55,259 nt of DNA from Pseudomonadota bacterium. Its GTDB lineage: Bacteria; Myxococcota_A; UBA796; GCA-2862545. Position numbers and translations under genes: made by a program. The stretch covers positions 1 through 55,259 of the forward strand of contig JAGSGY010000031.1 of assembly GCA_023954855.1 (NCBI GenBank), given 5' to 3'. Each line of letters starts with the position of its first letter. The first letter of the stretch is position 1. Below are positions 12,634 to 27,411 of this stretch, in pieces. The notes beneath the pieces are model-generated. The model searched no databases and was not told where the DNA came from. It saw only the letters and a program-made list of their open reading frames with translations.

Positions 12634-15600
12634 TTAAGCTCCCATTGCGCGCTGAAGACAATGCCCGGATGGTGTATCCAATCCAGCAACATGCTCGGGA
12701 GTACCCTCACCGACCACCCGGCCACCTGCCTCGCCGCCCACGGGCCCGAGGTCCACGATGTGGTCCGCCTGCTGCCAGACGTCGACGTGGTGCTCGATGG
12801 TGAGCACGGTGTGCCCCTGCTCGACGAGGCGGTGAAGAACGTCGACCAAGCGCGCCACGTCCGCGAGGTGCAGGCCTGTCGTCGGCTCGTCGAGCACGTA
12901 CACGCAGTGCCCAGCGCGCGAGACGAGCTCCTTCGCGAGCTTGACCCGCTGCGCTTCTCCGCCAGAGAGCGTGGTGCCGGGCTGCCCCAGCGTCAGGTAG
13001 CCAAGTCCCACATCGACGAGGGCCTGCAGCAAGCGGCCGAGCTTGCGGTGATTTCGAAACAGCTCGAGCACCTCATCCGTTCGCATCGACAGCACGTCGG
13101 CGATGCTCTTGCCCTTGTAGCGAATCTCGGAGGTCTCGCGGTTGAAGCGCTTGCCCTTGCAGGTCTCGCAAGTGACCCAGACGTCCGGCAAGAAGTGCAT
13201 CTCGACAACGATGGCGCCCCGTCCCTCGCACGCCTCGCAGCGTCCGGCGGCCGCGTTGAACGAGAACCGGCCGGGCAAAAAGCCCCTCGCCTTCGCCGCT
13301 GGGGTCTTCGCGTAGAGCTTGCGCAGCTCGTCCATGACGCCGGTGTAGGTGGCGGCTGTACTGCGTGGACTACGGCCAATCGGCGCTTGGTCAACGACGA
13401 CGACACGGTCGATTTTCTCGCCAGCGCTGAAGGCATCCACATCGACGGGAGGGGCGTTCACGCCGGTCTCGCCGCGGAGCAGAGGCACCAAGGTATCGAG
13501 GACCAGGCTCGACTTGCCCGATCCGGAGACGCCGGTCACCGCCGTCCACACCCCCGTCGGAAAGCGAACGTCGACCGACTTGAGGTTGTTGGAGCGAGCA
13601 CCCTCGACGCTCACGAATGCCCGCGGAGAGCGTCGGACGTCTCTGACGGGAAAGCGCTCACGACCGGTCAGCCAAGCGCCGGTGAGGCTGTCCGGGTGCG
13701 CACGAAGCTCGGCGGGCGTACCGGCTGCCATCATCTGCCCGCCGTGAACGCCGGCGCCCGGCCCGAGATCGATGACGTAGTCGGCTCGATCGATGGTCTC
13801 GGGATCGTGCTCGACCACCACCAAGGTGTTGCCGAGGTCACGGAGCTCTTCGAGCGTCGTGAGCAAGCGCTCGGTGTCCTGTGGGTGCAGCCCGATGGTC
13901 GGCTCATCCAGCACGTAGACCACCCCCGTAAGCCCGGAGCCGAGCTGGCTCGCGAGGCGAATGCGCTGGGCTTCGCCGCCGGAGAGCGTGTCGGCCGAGC
14001 GGTCGAGCCCAAGGTAGCCGAGGCCCACGTCGACCAAGAACTCGAGACGCTTGCGAAGCTCGTGCAGAGGCCGTTCTGCGATGACCTCGCGCTCTCCGTC
14101 GAAGGACCAGCCGGCCACCACGGCGGTGGCCTCCGCGACGCTGAGCTTGGTAAAGCGATCGATGCCCAATCCTCCGATGTGCACCGACAGGAGGGCAGGC
14201 GCGAGCCGTCCCCCGCTGCAGAGTCGGCAGGTCGACTCGGAAGACAACCACGCCAGACGCGAGCTCCAGCCATCGAGAATGGCGGTCAGCCCACCCCATT
14301 CACGCTTCTCTTCCACGTGCTGGACGCTCTTGCCCCACTTGCGAGACCAGGAAAGCGACAGCTCGCCGGGTACGCCGTCCATCACCGCGGTCCAAGTGGC
14401 ATCGGACCAGTCCAACACAGGGGTGCGCTCATCGAGCTCGCACTTCGACAGGACGGCGGCAACCAGGGCGCGGTTTCGAGGAGAACGCGCCAAAACGCCT
14501 GCCACACGCGCATCGAGTGCGTCCCAGAAGCCTTCGTCCCGATTTGGGAAGAGAAGCTCCCAGTCGATCTGCCGCGTGCTTCCAAGGCCATCGCAGCGAG
14601 GGCAGGCGCCGACACGCGAGTTGAACGAGAAATGCCTTGGTGTCAGCTCGACGGGCAGGTGGCTGCCGTGGTCGGGACAGGCTGGGCGAGCGGTGAGGAC
14701 CACCGGGCTGCCCTCGCGGCGAGGGACAAAGCGCACGGCGCCGTCGCCCAGCGAGAAGCCTGTCGTCACCGCCTCGGCAACCCGGCTCGATGCCGCCTTT
14801 GCGGGGTTGAGTCGGTCGAGGACGAGCGTCGCTCCCGCGGCGACGAGACCCTCGGCGTCGGCGTGCTCCAGACGCACCTCGCGCTCGCCGTCGAGCAGAC
14901 GACTCCATCCGTCGTCGACGAGTCCAGCCAGCCGACTCGCCGGTTCTTCGGCGGGACGGAGGGAACAGGTGACCCAACCCACGCCCGACGCTTCCGCGGC
15001 GAGCTTTGCCGCCCCACTGGACGGGCTGTAGCCCATGATTTCGCGGGCACACGTCGGACAGTGCGCGGTCCCCACCCGTGCCCACAGCACGCGCAACACG
15101 TCGTGAATCTCGGTCACGGTGGCGACCGTAGAGCGCGGGTTTCTCGACGCGTTGACCTGGTCGATCGCGATGGCCGGTGCCAGTCCCTCCATGCGCTCCA
15201 CCGGCGCACGATCGAGGCGGCCCAGGAAACGCCGTGCGTAGGTCGAGAGGCACTCGACGTAGCGACGCTGCCCCTCGGAGAAGATGGTGTCGAACGCCAG
15301 GGAGCTCTTTCCCGAGCCGCTGACGCCGGTGACCACGGTCATCTTGCCGTGCGGGATGCGAACGTCGATGCCCTGGAGGTTGTGCTTACGGGCTCCTTCG
15401 ATGATCAGCTCCGTCGGCCCCTTGTGGCGCCGCCGCCTTCGCGGTGGGGGCTCGGCGACCAGCGGCACGTCCACCAGCTCCGGTAGGTGTGCGAGAGCCT
15501 GACCCGTCGGAGTGTCGAGCTTGGCGAGCTGCTCAGGCGTGCCCGTGCCCACCAGCTGCCCCCCGCCGTCCCCGCCTTCGGGGCCCATGTCGAGGACGTG

Positions 15601-18282
15601 GTCCGCACACTTGATCACGTCGGTGTCATGCTCGATGACCAGCACGCTGTTGCCGGCATCGACGAGCCGCTGGAGTGCACCCACGAGCTTTCTGACATCG
15701 TCGAAGTGCAGCCCGGTCGTCGGCTCGTCGAGTAGGTACAGGGTCTTGCCGGTCGCCCGTCGGTGCAGCTCGGTTGCGAGCTTGACGCGCTGAGCCTCGC
15801 CTCCGGAGATGGTGGTGCTCGGCTGACCCAGCGGTACGTAGCCGAGCCCCACTTCCACCATCGTTCCAAGAATGCGGGCGAGCGACGGCACCTTTCCGAA
15901 GACCTCGAAGGCCTCGTCGATGGTCAGGGCCAACACATCGGCGATGCTCAAGCCCTTGAAGGTGATCTCGAGCGTCTCGGCGTTGAAGCGCTTGCCCTCG
16001 CAAGTCTCGCAGCGAACCTCGACATTCGGCAGGAACTGCATCTCGATCGTCTTGACGCCCGCGCCCTCACACGCCTCGCAGCGGCCCCCCTTCACATTGA
16101 AGCTGAACCGACCGGGCTTGTAGCCCCGGGCCCTCGACTCTTGCGTCTTCGCGTACAGCTTGCGGATGTGGTCGAAGGCCCCCACGTACGTGGCAGGATT
16201 GGACCGCGGCGTACGACCGATCGGCTGCTGAGAGATGCGGATCAGCTTGTCGACATTCTTCATGCCATCGATGCGTGCACAGTTCTCGGCCCGAGGCTCG
16301 CCCTTGAGCATGTTGCGCACAGTGGCTTCGAGCGCCGCAAACATCAGGCTCGACTTGCCTGAACCACTGACGCCCGTGACGGCACAAAGCACACCCAAGG
16401 GCACCTTGGCATCGACATCGCGCAGGTTGTTCGCCGTCGCCCCCCACACCTTGAGCCATGCGCTCGGCTTGCGACGCGTCTCGGGCACAGGAATGAAGCT
16501 CTCGCCGCGCAGATAGGACGCCGTCAGTCCTTTGCCCCTAGCAAAGCGGCCAGGCGTGGAGCTCGCGACGATGTGGCCTCCCAGGCGGCCAGCGCCCGGC
16601 CCCACATCCACGACGTGGTCAGCCGCAAGCATCGTCTCGGTGTCGTGTTCGACCACGAGCACCGAGTTTCCGCGGTCTCGGAGCCGATGGAGGGCGTGGA
16701 TCAAACGTCGGTTGTCACGTGGATGCAGGCCAATCGAGGGCTCGTCGAGCACGTAGGTCACGCCCTGAAGCGCCGACCCGACCTGGGCCGCGAGCCGGAT
16801 CCGCTGCGCCTCGCCGCCCGAGAGCGTGGCCGAAGACCGGTCGAGCGACAGATAGCCGAGGCCCACCTCCTCGAGAAACAGCAGTCGGTGGCGGATCTCG
16901 TCGATGATCGCCTCGCCGACCTCGCGCTCCGCACCCTTCAGCTTCAACTCGCCAAAGAAACGGGTGGCCTCGGCGACCGACATCCGCGTGAACGCCGGGA
17001 CATTGAGTCCGCGGAAGTCAACGGCACGCGCCACTGCACTCAGGCGCTCTCCATCGCACTCGGGGCACACGGTCTGGGTGCGAAAGGCTGCGAGACTCGG
17101 CCACTTCGTCCATCTCCAGACGTTGGCCGTCAGCGGCACCAAGCCCTGCCAGGGTCGCTCGCGCACCTCGGTTCGGCCACCGGGTCGCTCCACCTCGACC
17201 TTCACGATCAGCGAGGGGTCGCCCCAGAGAAGACGGTCGAGAACGGCGGGGTCCCAAGACGCCAGCTTCTTGTTTCCCGGCCCACCGAGGGCCTTGGACA
17301 CCTTGACGAGCTGCGCACGGTTGAAGTGCGCGAAGGGCAGCTTTCCGTCGGCGTTAAACCCGTTGAAGGCCGAGGAGACGCGCTTCGACACATCGACGAG
17401 CCGGTCGACATCGAAGTCCTCGAGGCGTCCGAGGCCGTTGCAGGCCGGACACGCACCCTGCGGTGCATTGAACGAGAACAGGCGCGGCTCGAGCTCCGGA
17501 ATGGCGATGGCCGGATGGTTCGGACACGCTCGGGAGGTCGAGTAGGTGTGCTCCCCTTCCTCGCCAAGAATCGTGGCGACTCCAGGCTCACCCTTGGCGA
17601 GCGCCGTCTCGAGTGCCTCGGCGAGACGCCCACGCATGCCTTCAGAGACCTTGATGCGGTCGACCACGACTTCGATCGTGTGCTTCTCGTAGCGAGCCAG
17701 CTCGATCTCTTCGTCGAGTCGATGCAGCTTGCCATCCACGCGCGCTCGCACCCAACCATCGATTTCGAGCTGCTTGAGCTCCTGCCGATACTGCCCCTTT
17801 CGCTCGCGAACGAGGGGGGCGAGCACATGTACCTTCTGACCGTCGAAGCGCTCGAGCGCATCATCGATGACGTGATCGAGGGCCAGGCTGGCGATCGGCT
17901 CACGGCAGTCCGGGCAGTGTGGCTTGCCGAGGCGCGCCATGAGCAGCCGCACGTGGTCGTAGATCTCGGTGACGGTCCCGACCGTCGAGCGCGGGTTTCG
18001 ATTGACCGTCTTCTGGTCGACCGAGAGCGTCGGGGACACCCCGATGACGGCATCGACCTCCGGCCTCTCCATCTGTCCGAGGAACTGCCGTGCATAGGAC
18101 GACAGCGAGTCCATGAACCGCCGCTGGCCTTCCTTGTAGATCGTGTCGAAGGCGAGGGACGACTTGCCGCTGCCCGACACTCCCGTGAACACCACCAGCG
18201 CATCGCGCGGCACGTCCACATCGACGTCTTTGAGGTTGTGTGCACGGGCACGGCGGACGGAAATGTGGGTAGGTCTGGACAC
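12634..18282 (-). CDS. uvrA: Double-length excinuclease ABC subunit A (tandem UvrA fusion)
   Basis: This encodes 1882 aa, twice the usual ~940 of UvrA, the ATP-dependent damage-recognition subunit of nucleotide excision repair. The start is GTG 18282 behind GAAGG. Two complete UvrA modules are joined near residue 950 through an Arg-rich linker (PPRRRRRHKGP). Each module has two ABC ATPase domains. Four Walker A motifs (GVSGSGKSS, about 34, 636, 984 and 1583) and four LSGGEAQR- or ISGGEAQR-type signatures (about 485, 823, 1433 and 1770) all look intact. Both modules keep the second zinc module (CEAC...CETC). In the first zinc module both have CPxH instead of CPxC. UvrA normally works as a dimer, so this is in effect a covalent UvrA2. 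Chlamydial UvrA is also double-length, so the architecture has precedent. Confidence 0.95.
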   Translation of the reverse strand: MSRPTHISVRRARAHNLKDVDVDVPRDALVVFTGVSGSGKSSLAFDTIYKEGQRRFMDSLSSYARQFLGQMERPEVDAVIGVSPTLSVDQKTVNRNPRSTVGTVTEIYDHVRLLMARLGKPHCPDCREPIASLALDHVIDDALERFDGQKVHVLAPLVRERKGQYRQELKQLEIDGWVRARVDGKLHRLDEEIELARYEKHTIEVVVDRIKVSEGMRGRLAEALETALAKGEPGVATILGEEGEHTYSTSRACPNHPAIAIPELEPRLFSFNAPQGACPACNGLGRLEDFDVDRLVDVSKRVSSAFNGFNADGKLPFAHFNRAQLVKVSKALGGPGNKKLASWDPAVLDRLLWGDPSLIVKVEVERPGGRTEVRERPWQGLVPLTANVWRWTKWPSLAAFRTQTVCPECDGERLSAVARAVDFRGLNVPAFTRMSVAEATRFFGELKLKGAEREVGEAIIDEIRHRLLFLEEVGLGYLSLDRSSATLSGGEAQRIRLAAQVGSALQGVTYVLDEPSIGLHPRDNRRLIHALHRLRDRGNSVLVVEHDTETMLAADHVVDVGPGAGRLGGHIVASSTPGRFARGKGLTASYLRGESFIPVPETRRKPSAWLKVWGATANNLRDVDAKVPLGVLCAVTGVSGSGKSSLMFAALEATVRNMLKGEPRAENCARIDGMKNVDKLIRISQQPIGRTPRSNPATYVGAFDHIRKLYAKTQESRARGYKPGRFSFNVKGGRCEACEGAGVKTIEMQFLPNVEVRCETCEGKRFNAETLEITFKGLSIADVLALTIDEAFEVFGKVPSLARILGTMVEVGLGYVPLGQPSTTISGGEAQRVKLATELHRRATGKTLYLLDEPTTGLHFDDVRKLVGALQRLVDAGNSVLVIEHDTDVIKCADHVLDMGPEGGDGGGQLVGTGTPEQLAKLDTPTGQALAHLPELVDVPLVAEPPPRRRRRHKGPTELIIEGARKHNLQGIDVRIPHGKMTVVTGVSGSGKSSLAFDTIFSEGQRRYVECLSTYARRFLGRLDRAPVERMEGLAPAIAIDQVNASRNPRSTVATVTEIHDVLRVLWARVGTAHCPTCAREIMGYSPSSGAAKLAAEASGVGWVTCSLRPAEEPASRLAGLVDDGWSRLLDGEREVRLEHADAEGLVAAGATLVLDRLNPAKAASSRVAEAVTTGFSLGDGAVRFVPRREGSPVVLTARPACPDHGSHLPVELTPRHFSFNSRVGACPRCDGLGSTRQIDWELLFPNRDEGFWDALDARVAGVLARSPRNRALVAAVLSKCELDERTPVLDWSDATWTAVMDGVPGELSLSWSRKWGKSVQHVEEKREWGGLTAILDGWSSRLAWLSSESTCRLCSGGRLAPALLSVHIGGLGIDRFTKLSVAEATAVVAGWSFDGEREVIAERPLHELRKRLEFLVDVGLGYLGLDRSADTLSGGEAQRIRLASQLGSGLTGVVYVLDEPTIGLHPQDTERLLTTLEELRDLGNTLVVVEHDPETIDRADYVIDLGPGAGVHGGQMMAAGTPAELRAHPDSLTGAWLTGRERFPVRDVRRSPRAFVSVEGARSNNLKSVDVRFPTGVWTAVTGVSGSGKSSLVLDTLVPLLRGETGVNAPPVDVDAFSAGEKIDRVVVVDQAPIGRSPRSTAATYTGVMDELRKLYAKTPAAKARGFLPGRFSFNAAAGRCEACEGRGAIVVEMHFLPDVWVTCETCKGKRFNRETSEIRYKGKSIADVLSMRTDEVLELFRNHRKLGRLLQALVDVGLGYLTLGQPGTTLSGGEAQRVKLAKELVSRAGHCVYVLDEPTTGLHLADVARLVDVLHRLVEQGHTVLTIEHHVDVWQQADHIVDLGPVGGEAGGRVVGEGTPEHVAGLDTPSGHCLQRAMGA

Positions 18283-18358
18283 CTTCGAGACCTATCTCGC
18301 AGGGGCGTCGCAGGCTTCGAGACACTGCCGCCGGCTGTCAGCAACACCCCAAACGACA

Positions 18359-19555: not shown

Positions 19556-22258
19556 CTACCAGGCCATCGTCGCCCACAGGGTCATGTCCATGCCCTGGTA
19601 CGGCGCACCCCACCCGTCGGGGAAGTGATCACAGTAGTAGCTGGCCGAGCCGCAGTACCCGGTACCCCACCCAATCGTGACCACATTCTGTACGAGTTGC
19701 ATCTCGGGAATCGGAAGCTGGATCAGCACTGTCTGTGCATCGATCTCGATGAGACCCGCTCCGGGAAGGTCTTGGTAGCCGGTGATGTCACGACCACGAA
19801 GCCGAGTGACGCCCGACTGAATGATGACGTTGTAGTCGAAGAACGGGGACCCAGTGGAGTCCATGAAGGCTTCGAGGAACAAGGTCGAGGCCTCGTAGGG
19901 AACGGCCGAGACCATGCGAATCTCGAGCACATCGCCCACAACCCGCCACTGCGCTGAAACGAAGTCAAACGCGTAGTCGCTGGCATCGCCGACCGTGTCG
20001 TGGGTCGTGGTGAGCGCACGCCACGGGGGTTCGCCGACGATCAGCTCGAAGTCCAGCAGGTACGTGGTGTCATCGTCTGTGCAGGTCAGCAGTAGATCGA
20101 CGTCATCACCCGCAGTTCCCGCCACCGATAGGGCGGGTCCCTGGTCGCTCTGGGTCTGACCCGCTTCGATGGTGCTGAACAACGCATTGGCGTCGGTGAT
20201 GGTGGCCGTGGCCGCGCCACCCGTCTGCGAGAGCGTGCAGTACACCGGCCCAAAGGTGTCGAGTGCACCACTGTTGGTCAGGTCGAGCGACAACTCGAAG
20301 CTCTCGCCGGCATCGGGAAGACCGTCGCCGTTCCCGGAAGCGCCATCCTCGACGACCACCGCCGTGAGGTCGAGAAGGGGCCAAGGTACGGGCACATCGA
20401 CGAGCACGAGGAAAGACTCGAGTTCATCGGTGACCGCCACCTCGAAGCGCACGGGCTGCGAGTCATTCTGGGAGGGCAACGCGAGGAACGAGAGCGGAAG
20501 AGAGGCCGTGGCGTTCTCGGCCCAGTCGCTGCCGAGCGCAAACGGCCCAGGCGTGAAGAGCGTGATGTCGGTGTCTGCGGAAGAGACGTCAGCCGTCGTC
20601 ACCCCAACCGTCGGCGGACCGTGGTTGACGAGGGTGAGGGTCCACGTCGCGTTGTCGCCCGGCAACACCGGACTCGGGACGGTGACCGAGCTGAACACTT
20701 CGGGAAGCGGCGGACGGGGCAGCCAGAACAGCGTCTCGGTGGATGCCGGCCAGGCGCCGAGATCGTCGCTCACCCAAGCGTCGGTGCCCGAGTCGATGCG
20801 GAAGAGATCGGTGGTGCCCGCCGAGGCGGAGAGCATGCGAACCCACCACCGCCCCGGCCCTGGAGCCGGCGGAAGCAGGGCGGCATGGGCAGTCAGATCG
20901 ACCGTCAGCTCGTGGCTGCCGGCCGCGAAGACCTGGGTCGCCGCCTCGACTTCGACATCGGGCGTGTCGGGGTCACCGGTGCCCACGGTCGCGACCACAA
21001 GCCCCTCAGCGAAGGTCGAGAAGCCGATCGTTGCGACGGTCGCGTCACCCACGAGAACCTGCGTATCGAGGCTCTCGGAAAAGTCGTCGGCGACCGCGTC
21101 CAGCCGAATCGGAAGCCAACTGTTGTCGGGGAAGGTCGCGTCCACCGAGAGGTCGAGCACGGCCGGCGCGGAGGCCCCCGCCGCAAGCACGCCCACCGTC
21201 ACTGGCGCCGACACGGTCCCGTCCACGACATCCACGGTGCCGGAGACCACTACGTTCGCCGCATCCACTGGCCCGACGTTGGTCACGGTCACCGTCATGG
21301 AATCGGTCGCGCCCGGATCAAAGCGTGTCCAGTCGACGTCGACAATCCGCAGATCGGAGGTCACCGGCCCGACAGCCAGATCATCGACGGTCCAGATGTC
21401 GGCGAAGGTGCCTTCGTAGCGGAACGCCAAGTACACCAGTGGCTCGCCGACCAACGTCTCGAGCGAGACCGCCGCGGCGCGGGACCAGTCCCCTTCTTGG
21501 GGCGCGGGCAGCGCCGCAATCTCGACAAAGTCGCCGGACTCGGGGTCCGCGGAGCCCGTCGAAGCCCAGAGAGAGTGCTGAGCGCCACCTGCAAAGGTGC
21601 CGTGCTCCCACCACGAGAGCTGTGCGGTGGTCGCATCCCCGAAGTCGAGCGGCGGAGAGACGAGCCAGTCGTCCATCGCCCCGGTCTCTTCGAGGCCTCT
21701 GCGGTGCTGCACGGCGAACTGGTCGCGCGCACGGCCCTCGGTGAGCTCCCAGGCGTAGCCGGGAAAACCGTAGGAATACTCGGCCCATTCCAGGTCGTAG
21801 AGCGTCAGGGCATCGGTGCCCTCTTCGAAGTCCTCGGTCCACGGAACGGTCGCGCCCTCGGTCAGGACCTCGAGCTCGAACGGCCCATCGTCCCCGTCGG
21901 TCGGCAGAAAGCTGACCGCCACGAACTCGGAGCCGTCGGTGGCCCGAAAGAAGTACTCGATGCCGGGTGCCGGAGCCGAGGCCACATCAAGGGTGTACAC
22001 CCCCTCTTGGTCCTCGAGGACTGCGCTCTCCCAGGCCGCCACACCGATCGGGCGCCAGCTCGCCTGCACCGAGAGCACGCCATCGGGGTCGTCCGCGGTC
22101 ACCGCCAACGAGACGGCATCGCCCGCAACGAACACCCCAGAAGGCGCCTCGTGCGTGAGCGTAGGCCCTTCGACATCGACGGGCGCCGGCGAGTCGCTGT
22201 CCTCGGTGCCGTTGCCATTGCAGGCCACCAGCAGAGCGAGCAGGAGGCCGACTCTCAT
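19556..22258 (-). CDS. Large multi-domain lipoprotein (choice-of-anchor J and CARDB domains)
   Basis: This encodes 900 aa. ATG 22258 overlaps the TGA of the preceding gene (ATGA) and opens a lipoprotein signal with lipobox LVAC (Cys13). An Ig/FN3-like region spans about residues 30-135. It is followed by a choice-of-anchor J-type domain from about 138 (WTEDFEEGTDALTLYDLEW, then DDWLVSPPLDFGDA). At least three CARDB-like modules follow (from about 301, 513 and 629; the last contains GNGDGLPDAGESFELSLDL). The C-terminal ~170 residues form an unassigned beta-rich domain. It is the last of five overlapping lipoprotein genes. Adhesion or a structural surface role is inferred. Confidence 0.82.
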   Translation of the reverse strand: MRVGLLLALLVACNGNGTEDSDSPAPVDVEGPTLTHEAPSGVFVAGDAVSLAVTADDPDGVLSVQASWRPIGVAAWESAVLEDQEGVYTLDVASAPAPGIEYFFRATDGSEFVAVSFLPTDGDDGPFELEVLTEGATVPWTEDFEEGTDALTLYDLEWAEYSYGFPGYAWELTEGRARDQFAVQHRRGLEETGAMDDWLVSPPLDFGDATTAQLSWWEHGTFAGGAQHSLWASTGSADPESGDFVEIAALPAPQEGDWSRAAAVSLETLVGEPLVYLAFRYEGTFADIWTVDDLAVGPVTSDLRIVDVDWTRFDPGATDSMTVTVTNVGPVDAANVVVSGTVDVVDGTVSAPVTVGVLAAGASAPAVLDLSVDATFPDNSWLPIRLDAVADDFSESLDTQVLVGDATVATIGFSTFAEGLVVATVGTGDPDTPDVEVEAATQVFAAGSHELTVDLTAHAALLPPAPGPGRWWVRMLSASAGTTDLFRIDSGTDAWVSDDLGAWPASTETLFWLPRPPLPEVFSSVTVPSPVLPGDNATWTLTLVNHGPPTVGVTTADVSSADTDITLFTPGPFALGSDWAENATASLPLSFLALPSQNDSQPVRFEVAVTDELESFLVLVDVPVPWPLLDLTAVVVEDGASGNGDGLPDAGESFELSLDLTNSGALDTFGPVYCTLSQTGGAATATITDANALFSTIEAGQTQSDQGPALSVAGTAGDDVDLLLTCTDDDTTYLLDFELIVGEPPWRALTTTHDTVGDASDYAFDFVSAQWRVVGDVLEIRMVSAVPYEASTLFLEAFMDSTGSPFFDYNVIIQSGVTRLRGRDITGYQDLPGAGLIEIDAQTVLIQLPIPEMQLVQNVVTIGWGTGYCGSASYYCDHFPDGWGAPYQGMDMTLWATMAW

Positions 22259-22887
22259 CGGGACACCCGCTCGGCAGTGGTTCCATTCGGGAGCTTCAGG
22301 GTGCCCGGCATGTCTGGACTCGACGTCGCCAGGTCCTGCCCCGGATCGTAGTCGTCGTAGAGCCAGCAGTAGGTCCAGCACTGGTAGTCGGTGATGTTGC
22401 CGCCGCCATCGGTGAACGAGTAGCACTCGAAGCCGCCGGGGCAGGCGCGTCCTTCGGCACAGTCAACGCCGCAGAAGCCGCCGATACAGCGGTTGCCCTC
22501 GCCACAGTCCTCGTCAGCACTCGCAGTCGTGCACGGGCGACAGTACTGGTCGCCCGCGTCGTAGCAATCGCCGGTCAGCGTGTTGCAGAACTCACGGTAG
22601 CCACAGTCGACCGAGGTCTCTTCACAGGCATTGGCCACGCACTCGGACAGCTCGACATCGCAGGAGGAGCCCGGGTAGCAGTCGTTGTCGCGGTCGCAGC
22701 CCGGGGCGCACTCGCGATCGACGCAGGTGTGCTCGATAGGGCAGTCTCCGTTGGTCGAGCAGCTTCCGAGGACGCACTGGCCCTGGATGCACACCTCGCC
22801 GAACCCCTCGCAGAGCAGTTCCTCGTCGCACTCGGCCTGGGTGCCTCCGCAGGCGCTCAAGAACAGCAGCAGAGCCGCAACCCTCAT
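22255..22887 (-). CDS. Cysteine-rich lipoprotein
   Basis: This encodes 210 aa. ATG 22887 lies in a TGATG overlap with the upstream vWA gene, with GGAG upstream. The signal is MRVAALLLFLSAC (Cys13). The mature part is packed with cysteines at EGF/EB-module-like spacing (for example CIQGQCVLGSC, GDCPIEHTCVDREC and CGEGNRCIGGFCGVDC), so it should be heavily disulphide-bonded outside the inner membrane. Its stop overlaps the next start (ATGA). The family is a typical myxobacterial Cys-rich surface lipoprotein of unknown function. Confidence 0.8.
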   Translation of the reverse strand: MRVAALLLFLSACGGTQAECDEELLCEGFGEVCIQGQCVLGSCSTNGDCPIEHTCVDRECAPGCDRDNDCYPGSSCDVELSECVANACEETSVDCGYREFCNTLTGDCYDAGDQYCRPCTTASADEDCGEGNRCIGGFCGVDCAEGRACPGGFECYSFTDGGGNITDYQCWTYCWLYDDYDPGQDLATSSPDMPGTLKLPNGTTAERVSR

Positions 22888-24458
22888 CACTCGTCTCCAG
22901 GGCAGATGGTCGCGGGGAAGTAGGTAGCGGTCACGTATTGCTCGCTGGGTGGGACTTGTTCTTCAACGAAACGAAGCAGGTTGCCGTCGACGACGTAGGT
23001 GAAGTCCTCGTCGATGATCAGCTCGCGAACGAAGCTCTCGGTGCTGTCGTTCTCGTAGAGCTTCACGACCATGGTGCCGAGAGAGGGACAGCGGCTGAGC
23101 GAGAACTCGGCGACCAGGCCCGACAGGGTGAGGCCGAGCTCGGCGACGATCGGCGAGAAGTCCGACTCGCAGATCGACTCGGTCAGCCCCGAGGTCTCGT
23201 TGGCTGCCTCGAGATAGCGACGTCCGTACCAGCCAATGCCATCTTCCGTCTCGCAAGACGGGATGTCATCGCGCGGCGGCGGATCTTTCGCGACCACCGC
23301 CGAGACGTTCAGCAAGGTGCGGTCGCGGTAGGCCCGGTCGCCCTTGAGGTCGGTGAACTCACGCAAGTAGGTGTGCACGGGGTACGGCGACACATCGTCC
23401 TCGTCCGAGACGAAGAGAAGCGAAAACGTCGCGTCATCACGCAGGAAAGCGCCGTTCTGCTCGTACAGCGAGCCCTCGAGCTCAACCTGGGTCGACGGAT
23501 GGCCCTCGAACACGAGCCGAGCATTCTCGAGGCCCTGCTCGATGCCGGTTCCGATGGTGCCCTGGGCCACGTTCTCAGCGAAGATCTCCGAGGCGGCAGG
23601 CGTGTCCGGCGTGATGTGAAGCACGCCGTCGTTGAGCGAGAAGCCGGTCGCCAGCGCCACATCCACCGGCGTGTCGCAGTTCGCAGAATCGCTGCGTCCA
23701 ACCACGATCTGGCTGCGCGGAGTGAGGTTGAGCGGGGACGGCAAGAAGGCGCTGTTGCGACCCCGGTCCGCAATCTCGAGGCCGCCGATCATCAGGGTGT
23801 CGTCGGTGGTGTTGGTCAGCTCGAACCACTCGCAGAGCGCGTCATCGCCCGGAGACTCCGCCATGATCTCGGTGATGACGAGGTTCCCCGCGCGTGGCTC
23901 ACGCGGACCGGCGTCGATCCCAACCACCACCTCCTCGATGGGCTCGCCATCACAGGTGATGTTCGGGCCTCCCGGAGTGCCCACACCGCCCTCGGCGCCG
24001 AAGCTCGCCTCGGAGTTGCACCAGTAGTCGGCGATGGTGTTGGTCGAGATGCGCAGGTTGTTGGCATCGAGCTGCAGCGAGGTTCCCCGCTGAAAGCCCC
24101 AGTCGCGGGTGTACTCGACCCGATCGAGCTCGCCGGTGTTTCCGCGCAGGATGATCTCGTCATCCCCGCCCATCAGCCGCCCGCGGTATTCGTCGTGCTC
24201 GGCATCGGTCGTGGTCACCGAGAGCTGCCAGTCGACATCGGCGGCTTCAAAACTCTGAATCAGCGCATCGAAGTTGCGGGCGAGGTTCTCTTGCTCCTCG
24301 CGCATCGAGCAGGAGTTGTCGATCACGACCAGCAGGTCGACCGCGTTGCGGCGCTCCTGGTGGAAGACGTCGACGACGTTGATCTGGGTAAAGCCCTGCT
24401 CATTGCAGCCTGCAAGGGCGAGTGCCGCCAGTAAGACGCTAGAAATCCACGGTCTCAC
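22887..24458 (-). CDS. vWA-domain lipoprotein with nested, apparently permuted lamin-tail domain
   Basis: This encodes 523 aa. The start is GTG 24458 behind GGGAGG; it overlaps the previous gene by 20 bases. The lipobox is LAGC (Cys18). The vWA domain begins at about residue 38 with the MIDAS motif D47-x-S49-x-S51 (VIDNSCSM). It stops at GRLMG (97) and resumes at about 278 (VLHITPDTP), continuing through GTGIEQGLENA, FLRDDATFS and VSDEDDVSPYP. Residues 98-277 hold both halves of a lamin-tail domain in reversed order. The C-terminal half comes first (DDEIILRGN, TSLQLDANNL, WCNSE, GTPGGPN). The N-terminal half follows (NLVITEIMAES, CEWFELTN, ATGFSLND). The open frame is uninterrupted. A surface ligand- or metal-dependent binding protein is inferred. 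Confidence 0.85.
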   Translation of the reverse strand: MRPWISSVLLAALALAGCNEQGFTQINVVDVFHQERRNAVDLLVVIDNSCSMREEQENLARNFDALIQSFEAADVDWQLSVTTTDAEHDEYRGRLMGGDDEIILRGNTGELDRVEYTRDWGFQRGTSLQLDANNLRISTNTIADYWCNSEASFGAEGGVGTPGGPNITCDGEPIEEVVVGIDAGPREPRAGNLVITEIMAESPGDDALCEWFELTNTTDDTLMIGGLEIADRGRNSAFLPSPLNLTPRSQIVVGRSDSANCDTPVDVALATGFSLNDGVLHITPDTPAASEIFAENVAQGTIGTGIEQGLENARLVFEGHPSTQVELEGSLYEQNGAFLRDDATFSLLFVSDEDDVSPYPVHTYLREFTDLKGDRAYRDRTLLNVSAVVAKDPPPRDDIPSCETEDGIGWYGRRYLEAANETSGLTESICESDFSPIVAELGLTLSGLVAEFSLSRCPSLGTMVVKLYENDSTESFVRELIIDEDFTYVVDGNLLRFVEEQVPPSEQYVTATYFPATICPGDE

Positions 24459-25287
24459 CGGGTCCCTCCCGAAAGTCGCCCACGACCGTATTCAGCAGCA
24501 TGTCCATCGTGTTGTCCAGCTGCGCGTTGACGTGAAAGCTCGCGTAGACCACGCGACCGCCGCCATCGGGCTCGAAGCTGACCAGAAGCGGCGCATCGGA
24601 CAGCGATGCGAAGCCACCCCCATTCTCGAGGGCGTACTCGACATCGCCGCGCGCCCAGACCGCCACGTCGTCGGCGACGCGCTCGACCGGGGCCCAGTTC
24701 GAGAAGTTGAACTCGAGCGGCAGGGTCTCGGTCTCGAGCAGCTCGCTCAGGCCGGGCTCTTCAACCGTCGCCATGATCTGGCCGATCTCGCCGCGCTGAG
24801 CGGCGTCGAGCACCGCGTCATCCCCGAGGAAGTCGATCTTGTCGGGCCATAGCGCCTCGACCAGCTCGTAGCTCCAGTCCGAGACGAACAGCGTGCGGTC
24901 GAAGTCCTCGACGTAGGTCCGGACTTCTTCGAGTACCGCGGCATCGCTGACGAGATGGTCGTCGGCCTCGAGGCCGTTGTACTCGCGCACGCCAAAGCCA
25001 CGGGTACCGGAGGCGACAAAGACGGCGTCGTAGTCACCCATCACGCGGGAGTCCGAGAGCAGCCCCTCGACCTTGAGCGCGACGTCCTCGTGGGGCCACT
25101 CGGTGTCGTAGGTCGCCACCGAGATGATGCCTTCGTAGACTTCGTGACGGACCTCGATGCGCTTGAGCGGCTCGGTCATGTCGTCGAAGTCACCCGCCAC
25201 TACGCCCACGGACGTGAGCGGGCCGCCGTAGAGACCCGTGTCGCTCTTGCAACCCACGAGCATGGCCAGCAGAAACAGCCCTCTCAT
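24439..25287 (-). CDS. Hypothetical lipoprotein with amidotransferase-like fold features
   Basis: This encodes 282 aa. ATG 25287 overlaps the upstream stop (ATGA) and starts a lipoprotein signal with lipobox MLVGC (Cys13). The sequence has an alternating beta/alpha pattern (DYDAVFVASGTRGFG, RTLFVSDWSYELVEALWPD, GGRVVYASFHVNAQ). This resembles class I glutamine-amidotransferase/ThuA-like folds, but I see no catalytic Cys-His pair, so an enzyme role is not supported. Its 3' end overlaps the vWA gene by 20 bases. It is the second gene of the five-gene lipoprotein operon. Confidence 0.75.
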   Translation of the reverse strand: MRGLFLLAMLVGCKSDTGLYGGPLTSVGVVAGDFDDMTEPLKRIEVRHEVYEGIISVATYDTEWPHEDVALKVEGLLSDSRVMGDYDAVFVASGTRGFGVREYNGLEADDHLVSDAAVLEEVRTYVEDFDRTLFVSDWSYELVEALWPDKIDFLGDDAVLDAAQRGEIGQIMATVEEPGLSELLETETLPLEFNFSNWAPVERVADDVAVWARGDVEYALENGGGFASLSDAPLLVSFEPDGGGRVVYASFHVNAQLDNTMDMLLNTVVGDFREGPGETVDF

Positions 25288-27029
25288 GATGGGTCCTCCA
25301 AAATCAGCTGCGCAGAGGTCGAGAGCACCGAGGTCGACTGGATGGTCTGCACCGTGGACCCCGGCCAGCCCCACATACGGCCCTCGATGAACGAGTACGC
25401 CCCGAACTGGACAGGCCCCGCCTCGAGTGCCGAGAGCTGGAGCGAAGAGTAGGTGTGCGCACCGTCATCCCACGGCAGAGACCCGGCAAAACCAGGCTCG
25501 CCATCCGAGACAAGAATGCCGCTGATGCTCGTGCCAAAGATGGCGTCCGGGTAGGTCTCGGCGGCCGTCCACTCGTAGTGGAAGTCCTCGGTGCGCAGCG
25601 CAATCTCGTCGGCCCAGAAGCCCGGTTCCGTCAGGTAGTAGTCGGCGGGGACGGTGGGCTGAACGTCTTCGATGATCACCTCGGGAAGGCCGTCGGGGTC
25701 TCCCTGGGTGTGCAGGTCGTAGACGTTGTCGAACACATAGTCGGCGAGGGTCAGGTCGCGACCGACGTAGGCGATCTGGTTGGTCCCTTCGAACTCCTCT
25801 TTGTAGAGGGTCACGATGTTCGCGTCGGACTCGTACCAGACCACATCGCCCGCCGAGACGGTCTCGGCGTTGGGACAGTCGACCGGCTCGGGATCGGGCG
25901 GCACCGGGAACACGCCATTCACGTCGAAGGGCATGGGGCCCGAGCCCATCGGGGCCGCCGCGCCACAGGGCGGGTCGAGCGGAATGACGAAGTAGGTGAT
26001 GGCTTGAACGCTCTCGAGCAGCTCACCAGTGTCGTTGTCGATCTGCCGATACACATCGAAGAAGGTGCGCGGCACGAGGTCGGTCAGGGACGGGTCCTGG
26101 TCGAGCACCTCGATCGCGTCGGGCAGCAGAATCGCTTCGTCGTTGCTGCGGATCACGACATCGCGGTAACCGAGCGCCGCGGCGTTCGAGATCTGGATGC
26201 GGCCGTACATGTTCTCGTCGTCGATGACCGTGAGCGAGCCCACCTGGATGTCGGCATTGGCGCCGCCATCGTCGTAGAACTCGATGGTCGCATCGACGCC
26301 GAAGCGGGTGTCGAGACCGGTGACGGTGTAGGCCACCGAGTCGCCCTGGTAGGCCTGCGGCGGGTCCCACACCGCCGTGATCACCGCGCGGTCCACGGTG
26401 AAGCCGTCGTAGCGGGTGACCACCGAAGGTCCGTCTTCCATGGCGACGTCGCGCACACCGGGAGGGGCATCGGGATGCACCGCGATGGTTGCCACTGCCT
26501 CGGTCTCGGAGACGACGTCTAGCTCGAGCACATCAATGCCGGGACCGAAGGAGGCCCAGGTGTATCCCTGGCTCCAGTCCGTGCCCTCGCCCGTGACTTC
26601 GATCTCGAGCATCTCGCCCATCTTCGCGTCGGCTGGTGCCAGGGTGATCGACTGGTCTACCACGGTGAAGGTCTGCTCGAGCGGCCCGCTGGTGTTCTCG
26701 ACACTCAGGGTGACGTCATGGGCTCCGAGCTCTGCCGTCTCGGGAATCGTGAGCTCGGCCTCGACCGTGTACCCATCGAAGACGGTCACCGAGTCGACGG
26801 TGATGTCGGAGCCGAGGTCGAGGTCCGTGTCGCCAAAGACAAAGGAACTCAGCGTGCCGTAGACCCGCACGCGCATCGAGGTTCCGCGAGCGCCAATGGC
26901 GGGCTCGAGGGTGTAGCGAAGCACCGGAACGTCATCGACGACGACCGCCGAGTCGCCAGCCGCGGAACCGTCATCTGCGCACCCGACCGCAAGCACGGCA
27001 GCGCACAGCAAGGTGCAAGTGGTTCGCAT
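25284..27029 (-). CDS. Lipoprotein with IPT/TIG-like domains
   Basis: This encodes 581 aa. ATG 27029 follows GGAGAT and opens a lipoprotein signal with lipobox AVGC (Cys17). Three or four Ig-like IPT/TIG-type units occupy about residues 30-330. They show alternating strands and phrases such as LGAHDVTLSVEN, APPGVRDVAMEDG and LGYRDVVIRS. The C-terminal ~250 residues are an unassigned domain with several Trp and Tyr residues. It is the first gene of a run of five lipoproteins whose start and stop codons overlap. A promoter candidate lies upstream at 27063-27092. A surface scaffold role is inferred. Confidence 0.8.
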   Translation of the reverse strand: MRTTCTLLCAAVLAVGCADDGSAAGDSAVVVDDVPVLRYTLEPAIGARGTSMRVRVYGTLSSFVFGDTDLDLGSDITVDSVTVFDGYTVEAELTIPETAELGAHDVTLSVENTSGPLEQTFTVVDQSITLAPADAKMGEMLEIEVTGEGTDWSQGYTWASFGPGIDVLELDVVSETEAVATIAVHPDAPPGVRDVAMEDGPSVVTRYDGFTVDRAVITAVWDPPQAYQGDSVAYTVTGLDTRFGVDATIEFYDDGGANADIQVGSLTVIDDENMYGRIQISNAAALGYRDVVIRSNDEAILLPDAIEVLDQDPSLTDLVPRTFFDVYRQIDNDTGELLESVQAITYFVIPLDPPCGAAAPMGSGPMPFDVNGVFPVPPDPEPVDCPNAETVSAGDVVWYESDANIVTLYKEEFEGTNQIAYVGRDLTLADYVFDNVYDLHTQGDPDGLPEVIIEDVQPTVPADYYLTEPGFWADEIALRTEDFHYEWTAAETYPDAIFGTSISGILVSDGEPGFAGSLPWDDGAHTYSSLQLSALEAGPVQFGAYSFIEGRMWGWPGSTVQTIQSTSVLSTSAQLILEDPS

Positions 27030-27062
27030 CGGGGCAGATCTCCGGTTCGACAGGACCCAACG

Positions 27063-27092
27063 AGTATAGCCACGCCGAAACAGCACCGGCAA
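27063..27092 (-). promoter_or_regulatory. Candidate sigma-70-type promoter of the lipoprotein operon
   Basis: On the minus strand TTGCCG (27092-27087) is followed after 18 bases by TATACT (27068-27063), about 34 bases before the ATG at 27029. Each hexamer is close to consensus. This is a sequence match only. Confidence 0.4.
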
Positions 27093-27168
27093 CGAAGGCC
27101 TTTCGGGCTTGGAATGGCGGAGGAGCGCCCCGTCGTAGGACGTCGCCTGCTCGCCGTTCGTGGGCGGA

Positions 27169-27411
27169 CTAGCGGTGGTGCTCGGGGTTCGGGTGCCCGA
27201 TCTGGGCCAGCGCAACCAGCGGGTCGTCGGAGGGGCAGACCTCGGCCTCTTTCTTGACGCAGACGCCGCAAGAGATGCCATGGGCTTCGTGAAGGGCCTC
27301 ACCGGCACCGCCACAAGAACCCTGAAGTTCGCGCTCGTTCAGCAGAAGACCGACAGCCATCGCCGCCATGCAAGCGCCGAAGAACAGCACGACCAGGAGC
27401 ATCTGTGTCAT
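27169..27411 (-). CDS. nqrM: Na+-NQR maturation protein NqrM
   Basis: This encodes 80 aa. ATG 27411 follows GGAGG. One N-terminal transmembrane helix (MLLVVLFFGACMAAMAVGLL) is followed by LQGSCGGAG and four conserved-type cysteines at 33, 48, 51 and 59. This matches NqrM (DUF539), which is needed to deliver the membrane-embedded iron centre between NqrD and NqrE. Its position as last gene of an nqrABCDEF-apbE unit is the usual one. Confidence 0.88.
   Translation of the reverse strand: MTQMLLVVLFFGACMAAMAVGLLLNERELQGSCGGAGEALHEAHGISCGVCVKKEAEVCPSDDPLVALAQIGHPNPEHHR

Follow-up and report, generated by a model that had tools for sequence, protein, structure and literature searches.

The nesting of a vWA domain with an immunoglobulin-type fold is familiar from the integrin beta subunits, in which the I-like (vWA) domain is nested in the Ig-type hybrid domain. 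In the vWA fold, the MIDAS face includes the loop between the second and third beta strands; in the integrin beta subunits this beta2-beta3 segment is the specificity loop, which helps to choose the ligand. Another Ig-like fold is the lamin-tail domain (LTD, Pfam PF00932), which is found in human lamins A/C and B and as the repeating unit of bacterial LTD arrays. Among bacterial lipoproteins, CglD (NF033765) of the myxobacterial gliding system contains a vWA region, and Bd0875 of Bdellovibrio (NF052240) is a surface adhesin with a lipobox and a MIDAS, whose authors linked a cap beside the MIDAS to its special role (PMC11003981). A circularly permuted domain order can also be conserved in nature, as exemplified by the cpRAS GTPases (PMC2430557). 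The origin of such natural permutations is seldom visible, and usually only the end product survives.

Here we describe a bacterial lipoprotein gene in which an LTD with swapped halves is nested in a vWA domain. The window, that is, the whole stretch of DNA analyzed, comprises the 55,259 nucleotides of contig JAGSGY010000031.1 (assembly GCA_023954855.1), and the features of the gene and its neighbors are collected in Table 1. The encoded 523-aa protein reads, in order, vWA N-terminal part, LTD C-half, linker, LTD N-half and vWA C-terminal part. The insert occupies 180 residues after residue 97, and the rest of the protein aligns to insert-free vWA proteins in its own genome. As the initial annotation of this DNA described, the segment at 23628-24167 (residues 98-277) lies inside the 523-aa reading frame without any break in frame.

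Table 1. The vWA-LTD lipoprotein gene, its domains and its conserved neighbors (positions in the window).
Feature	Position	Strand	Basis
CDS, 523-aa lipoprotein, vWA/MIDAS domain with nested permuted LTD	22887..24458	-	full-length homologs
Lipobox Cys18	24405..24407	-	Cys in 30/30 homologs
vWA N-terminal part, residues 41-97	24168..24338	-	alignment to uninterrupted paralogs and orthologs
MIDAS motif DNSCS, residues 47-51	24306..24320	-	D47, S49 and S51 invariant, 30/30
LTD C-terminal half, residues 98-169, with invariant C147 and C169	23952..24167	-	array-unit HMM 84-163; Cys invariance
Linker from LTD C-half to N-half, residues 170-191	23886..23951	-	12-41 aa across homologs; comparable linkers between array LTD units
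LTD N-terminal half, residues 192-277	23628..23885	-	PF00932 positions 4-73; array-unit HMM 1-91
vWA C-terminal part, residues 278-440	23139..23627	-	alignment to uninterrupted paralogs and orthologs
D352, candidate MIDAS acidic residue in SDEDD	23403..23405	-	invariant, 30/30
C-terminal region, residues 441-523	22890..23138	-	conserved across homologs
Cys-rich lipoprotein-like gene, 211 aa, conserved neighbor	22255..22890	-	synteny; no Pfam match
Conserved neighbor, 311 aa	24439..25374	-	synteny; no Pfam match
Conserved neighbor, 676 aa	25284..27314	-	synteny; one short Pfam match, PF09099
Conserved neighbor, 956 aa, choice_anch_J domain, CARDB borderline	19556..22426	-	synteny

The insert matches PF00932 above the Pfam cut-off and is the same unit as the arrays of these bacteria, but its halves are swapped and it is nested in another domain. 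As in integrin beta, vWA and Ig-type folds are nested, and the insertion appears to fall in the loop that helps integrins to choose their ligands; however, there the vWA domain sits in an Ig-type fold, whereas here a permuted Ig-type fold sits in a vWA domain. With Bd0875 and NF052240 the protein shares a lipobox, a vWA domain with a DxSxS MIDAS and, presumably, extra protein adjoining the MIDAS, but its score of 49.5 against a cut-off of 700 does not make it a member, and the cap in Bd0875, a short linear stretch (aa 143-176), is not an LTD and, by residue counting, sits at another loop (PMC11003981). Its vWA region is weakly similar to that of CglD, but the cut-off of NF033765 is 400 and the protein scores 23.7, which places it outside that family; size and architecture differ as well. 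The likeness to the cpRAS GTPases (PMC2430557) is that of a known domain conserved in a naturally permuted form, whereas in the present protein the permuted LTD additionally lies within another domain, and both its empty site and its array relatives were found. Searches of the open-access literature turned up no previous account of an LTD inside a vWA domain; circular permutation and domain insertion are each known as kinds, and what is new is their combination with the empty site and the array relatives in view.

The swapped order is evident from profile comparisons. The Pfam match to PF00932 covers residues 189-259 only, corresponding to profile positions 4-73 of 109, and scores 44.2 bits against a gathering cut-off of 34.3 bits; the C-half alone gives no Pfam match. 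When the halves are rejoined on paper in native order, the match grows to positions 7-108 and 52 bits, bearing out the initial suggestion that joining them would restore a normal LTD. A second profile, of 164 positions, was built from 39 LTD units of tandem-array proteins and holds no sequence of the permuted family; a profile of the rejoined family had served to locate these units, which affects the proteins sampled and not the order of the halves. This array-unit HMM aligns residues 90-169 with positions 84-163 and residues 191-278 with positions 1-91, and the two halves jointly cover positions 1-163 of the 164 with nearly no gap or overlap. All 30 aligned homologs have the same order (roughly positions 87-163, then 1-91), with a first-half match that begins earlier or a second-half match that extends further in some of them, and with one exception, L020, in which the N-half match ends at position 72. 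When searched against the genome that contains the window, the array-unit alignment likewise finds the permuted gene as two half-matches, 81-163 and then 1-91.

The insert is thus without the native linear strand order, and because its C-half precedes its N-half in the 30 homologs examined, this LTD by sequence is best called a circular permutant rather than an ordinary LTD. Such a permutation had been proposed from the first reading of the DNA, together with the contrary outcome of two unrelated domains; the array-unit HMM finds complementary halves of one unit in the homologs. Among the 30 homologs the insert measures 161-203 aa, and C147 and C169 never vary. A second cysteine pair, residues 209 and 261 in the N-half (about 23676-23834), is present jointly in six homologs (the window gene, L016 and L018-L021) and absent from the other 24, which suggests a lineage-specific disulfide. 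Some linkers of the permuted inserts, like those between LTD units of arrays, are D/T/G-rich low-complexity repeats (among L022, L035, L046, L106, L107, L109 and L111), and other array linkers are made of calcium-binding-like DxDGDG repeats (L109, L111).

The state of the gene before the insertion can still be seen in relatives. In families f7 and f8, class members that lie outside the order, the gene between the same neighbors (676, 311, vWA, 211 and 956 aa) is insert-free. The empty site of the ortholog L104 reads GRLLG-DVPFITPQTP, where the window gene has GRLMG, the insert and GVLHITPDTP, in agreement with the expectation that removing the insert restores the vWA domain. The break after residue 97 stands as first drawn, and the resumption, which had been set at VLHITPDTP, is corrected to about residue 278/279 (G278, V279); no vWA residues appear to have been lost at insertion. 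The corresponding hairpin of family f9 is also empty (GRLVG-ETKLIT and similar), and the neighbors were seen in each of the six loci examined that extend to the gene. In a tree of the vWA region all insert-bearing proteins fall on one branch (support 100/99), and in a tree of rejoined LTD units all permuted units do so as well (100/99), beside and not inside the sampled array units. A single gain after the split from the empty-site lineages explains these data, and the trees portray the permutation as one old event common to an order. The f9 orthologs L164, L165, L166, L168, L169 and L172 carry another kind of insert, about 200 aa in length or longer, between VVGDxPDGC and NPYPI; it is rich in DxDGDGxxDCxDxDC motifs (calcium-binding-like repeats), and the beta2-beta3 loop of these proteins is empty. 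The same vWA gene has acquired different domains from lineage to lineage.

The full-length gene is present in 36 of the 63 genomes of the order, with partial copies in four more. No full-length copy was found in the eight genomes of the class outside the order, nor anywhere outside the order among the 379 phylum genomes searched. Order members that lack the full gene mostly also lack the 676-aa neighbor, a pattern consistent with a lost cluster or absent contigs rather than with an empty site within the order. A genome of the same genus encodes the protein at 78% identity over residues 2-523. When these two genes are compared, the LTD halves have dN/dS ratios of 0.31 (C-half) and 0.38 (N-half), and the two vWA parts have ratios of 0.18 and 0.12. 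Both LTD halves are thus under purifying selection, and the early impression of a functional protein gains weight from these ratios and from the full-length gene in 36 genomes. The five neighboring genes (19556-27314; 676, 311, vWA, 211 and 956 aa) remain linked throughout the order and also in members of the class beyond it; several have lipoprotein-like starts and most are without a clear family. In L173 (G003:C11:13000-22500), from a genome that is 98% complete, the cluster is kept, with no match to the vWA or 211-aa gene between the 311- and 956-aa genes.

A plausible source of the insert is found in the same group of bacteria. Proteins with two to five head-to-tail LTD units occur in the order, in the class and more widely in the phylum, and their units have a signature in common with the insert, namely Trp-Cys followed by GTPG..N..C, a linker and G.LVITE. 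When the insert is turned into a profile without reordering its halves, it matches the array proteins continuously through a C-half, the linker and the next N-half. Because the array units carry this signature and are matched without interruption, the simplest source of the insert would be a single array period whose phase is shifted. In the tree of rejoined units, the permuted ones group next to the sampled array units and not within them, so that no particular donor array is singled out. By composition there is no sign of foreign origin (GC 0.66 and GC3 0.86 in the insert, 0.63 and 0.83 in the rest). Searches of viral contigs for homologs returned vWA proteins that lack an LTD, together with a single remote LTD.

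In the ancestor of families f1-f5 of the order, one period of a tandem LTD array would have been cut in the middle of one LTD and in the middle of the next, and placed in the loop between the second and third vWA strands. Owing to these two cuts, the product would read LTD C-half, inter-repeat linker, LTD N-half, which is a permuted LTD. Both halves would then most likely fold as one LTD beta-sandwich. As sequence neighbors in the parent LTD, the new ends could exit side by side, which would suit a tight loop, and the old inter-repeat linker would connect the native ends. These ends, which the initial annotation took to lie close to each other, are bridged here by 12-41 residues. Overall, we regard it as probable that an array period with shifted phase was inserted in the vWA loop, folds as one LTD and is part of a MIDAS adhesin on the cell surface.

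The permutation could alternatively have arisen in place. Duplication and deletion is one of the standard models of how natural circular permutants arise (PMC3281007), and an identical outcome would be reached if a normal LTD had entered the vWA loop, been tandem-duplicated there and then lost the N-half of the first copy and the C-half of the last. We consider this course unlikely, as no normal-order or double-LTD intermediate is seen among the genomes with the gene, the empty-site orthologs hold no remnant, and ready-made LTD arrays or repeats already exist in the same genomes.

Integration of a circular segment, one of the two origins first put forward for this gene, can be recast as a one-period circle that inter-repeat recombination excised from an LTD array. 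Such a circle accounts for both cuts at equal phase (HMM 84-91 at both ends), and the arrays that could supply it are present; however, selection for one complete domain would produce that phase match as well, and the circle is unnecessary because the LTD unit exists as head-to-tail arrays in the same genomes. Neither is the event recent. The short GGCG shared by the two junctions is present in this DNA, but as microhomology left by the integration it was rejected, since it is not conserved among the 30 homologs: residue 278, where the second GGCG lies, is Gly in only two of them, the junction codons have diverged and no DNA trace is left. The present junction DNA is uninformative on the mechanism because the event is old. 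We grant the circle the same low probability as duplication in place, and the linear array fragment is preferred.

The array fragment is further expected to fold as one domain, for which structure prediction, proposed early on as a check, gives weak support. With only two or three sequences as input, AlphaFold produced a full-length model too poor to use (pLDDT 32, two sequences) and a weak model of the insert (pLDDT 50). The top Foldseek matches of the insert model are the Ig domains of lamins A/C and B (E 0.011-0.018, probability 0.93-0.99) at low TM-score, and with VIA lamin chains fill five of the first six rows at Z 6.0-6.4, values that are common among beta-sandwiches. Much of the lamin match comes from the N-half of the insert. 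The insert model also contained vWA residues 278-285, which may substitute for a missing LTD strand. No true relative emerged from PDB sequence searches that used the rejoined LTD, the profile of the family or the array units as queries. A single LTD fold is likely. In the full-length model, at its pLDDT of 32, predicted strands 76-83 and 278-284 flank the insert, which fits an insertion site in the loop between the second and third vWA strands.

Conversely, the two halves could be independent elements, or the C-half could pair with the N-half of another molecule in a domain swap. In favor of this, the structure models are of low confidence, and certain linkers have as few as 12 aa and a low-complexity sequence, but in the 30 homologs each half supplies almost exactly what the other lacks of one unit, and the two always co-occur and both evolve under constraint, which makes their separation quite improbable. 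An assembly or binning artifact, against which the initial annotation had cautioned, was rejected as having a negligible chance: the window is one of 178 contigs of its assembly, but the full-length gene has the same architecture in 36 genomes and, where checked, one conserved gene neighborhood.

The Pfam match of the host domain to VWA_2 (14 bits, E 0.083) stays below the cut-off even when the insert is left out. The MIDAS residues D47, S49, S51 and D352 and the lipobox C18 are invariant in all 30 homologs; the candidate MIDAS threonine T301 is Thr in 21 of them, and residue 304 is Ser or Thr in 24. Because the MIDAS and the lipobox are invariant, the protein is weakly similar to the NF052240 and CglD models and Bd0875 provides a precedent, we infer that the lipoprotein is most likely a metal-dependent adhesin, presumably located on the outer surface. 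An LTD on the MIDAS face would then shape or add to ligand binding. By analogy with Bd0875, residues 441-523 probably form a small beta domain together with the N-terminus (PMC11003981).

Insert-bearing genes, syntenic empty-site orthologs and array relatives all survive in living relatives, so that models of permutation by array fragment, by duplication and trimming in place or by a circle can be compared in one system. The locus also offers a structural reason why a permuted domain can suit insertion in a loop better than its normal counterpart, and an experimentally accessible example in which a putative vWA adhesin would have acquired an extra domain beside its metal site. More tentatively, tandem domain arrays may be a general source of ready-made circular permutants, as a one-period fragment of any phase would have adjacent ends suited to a tight loop; here, one such fragment would have been fixed in a MIDAS adhesin beside the ligand face and kept for the life of the order. 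Elsewhere in the window, a UvrA of 1430 aa (14002-18291) has a standard UvrA portion of about 940 aa, after which an additional stretch at the C-terminus resembles UvrA once more; the protein also matches the long model PRK00635.
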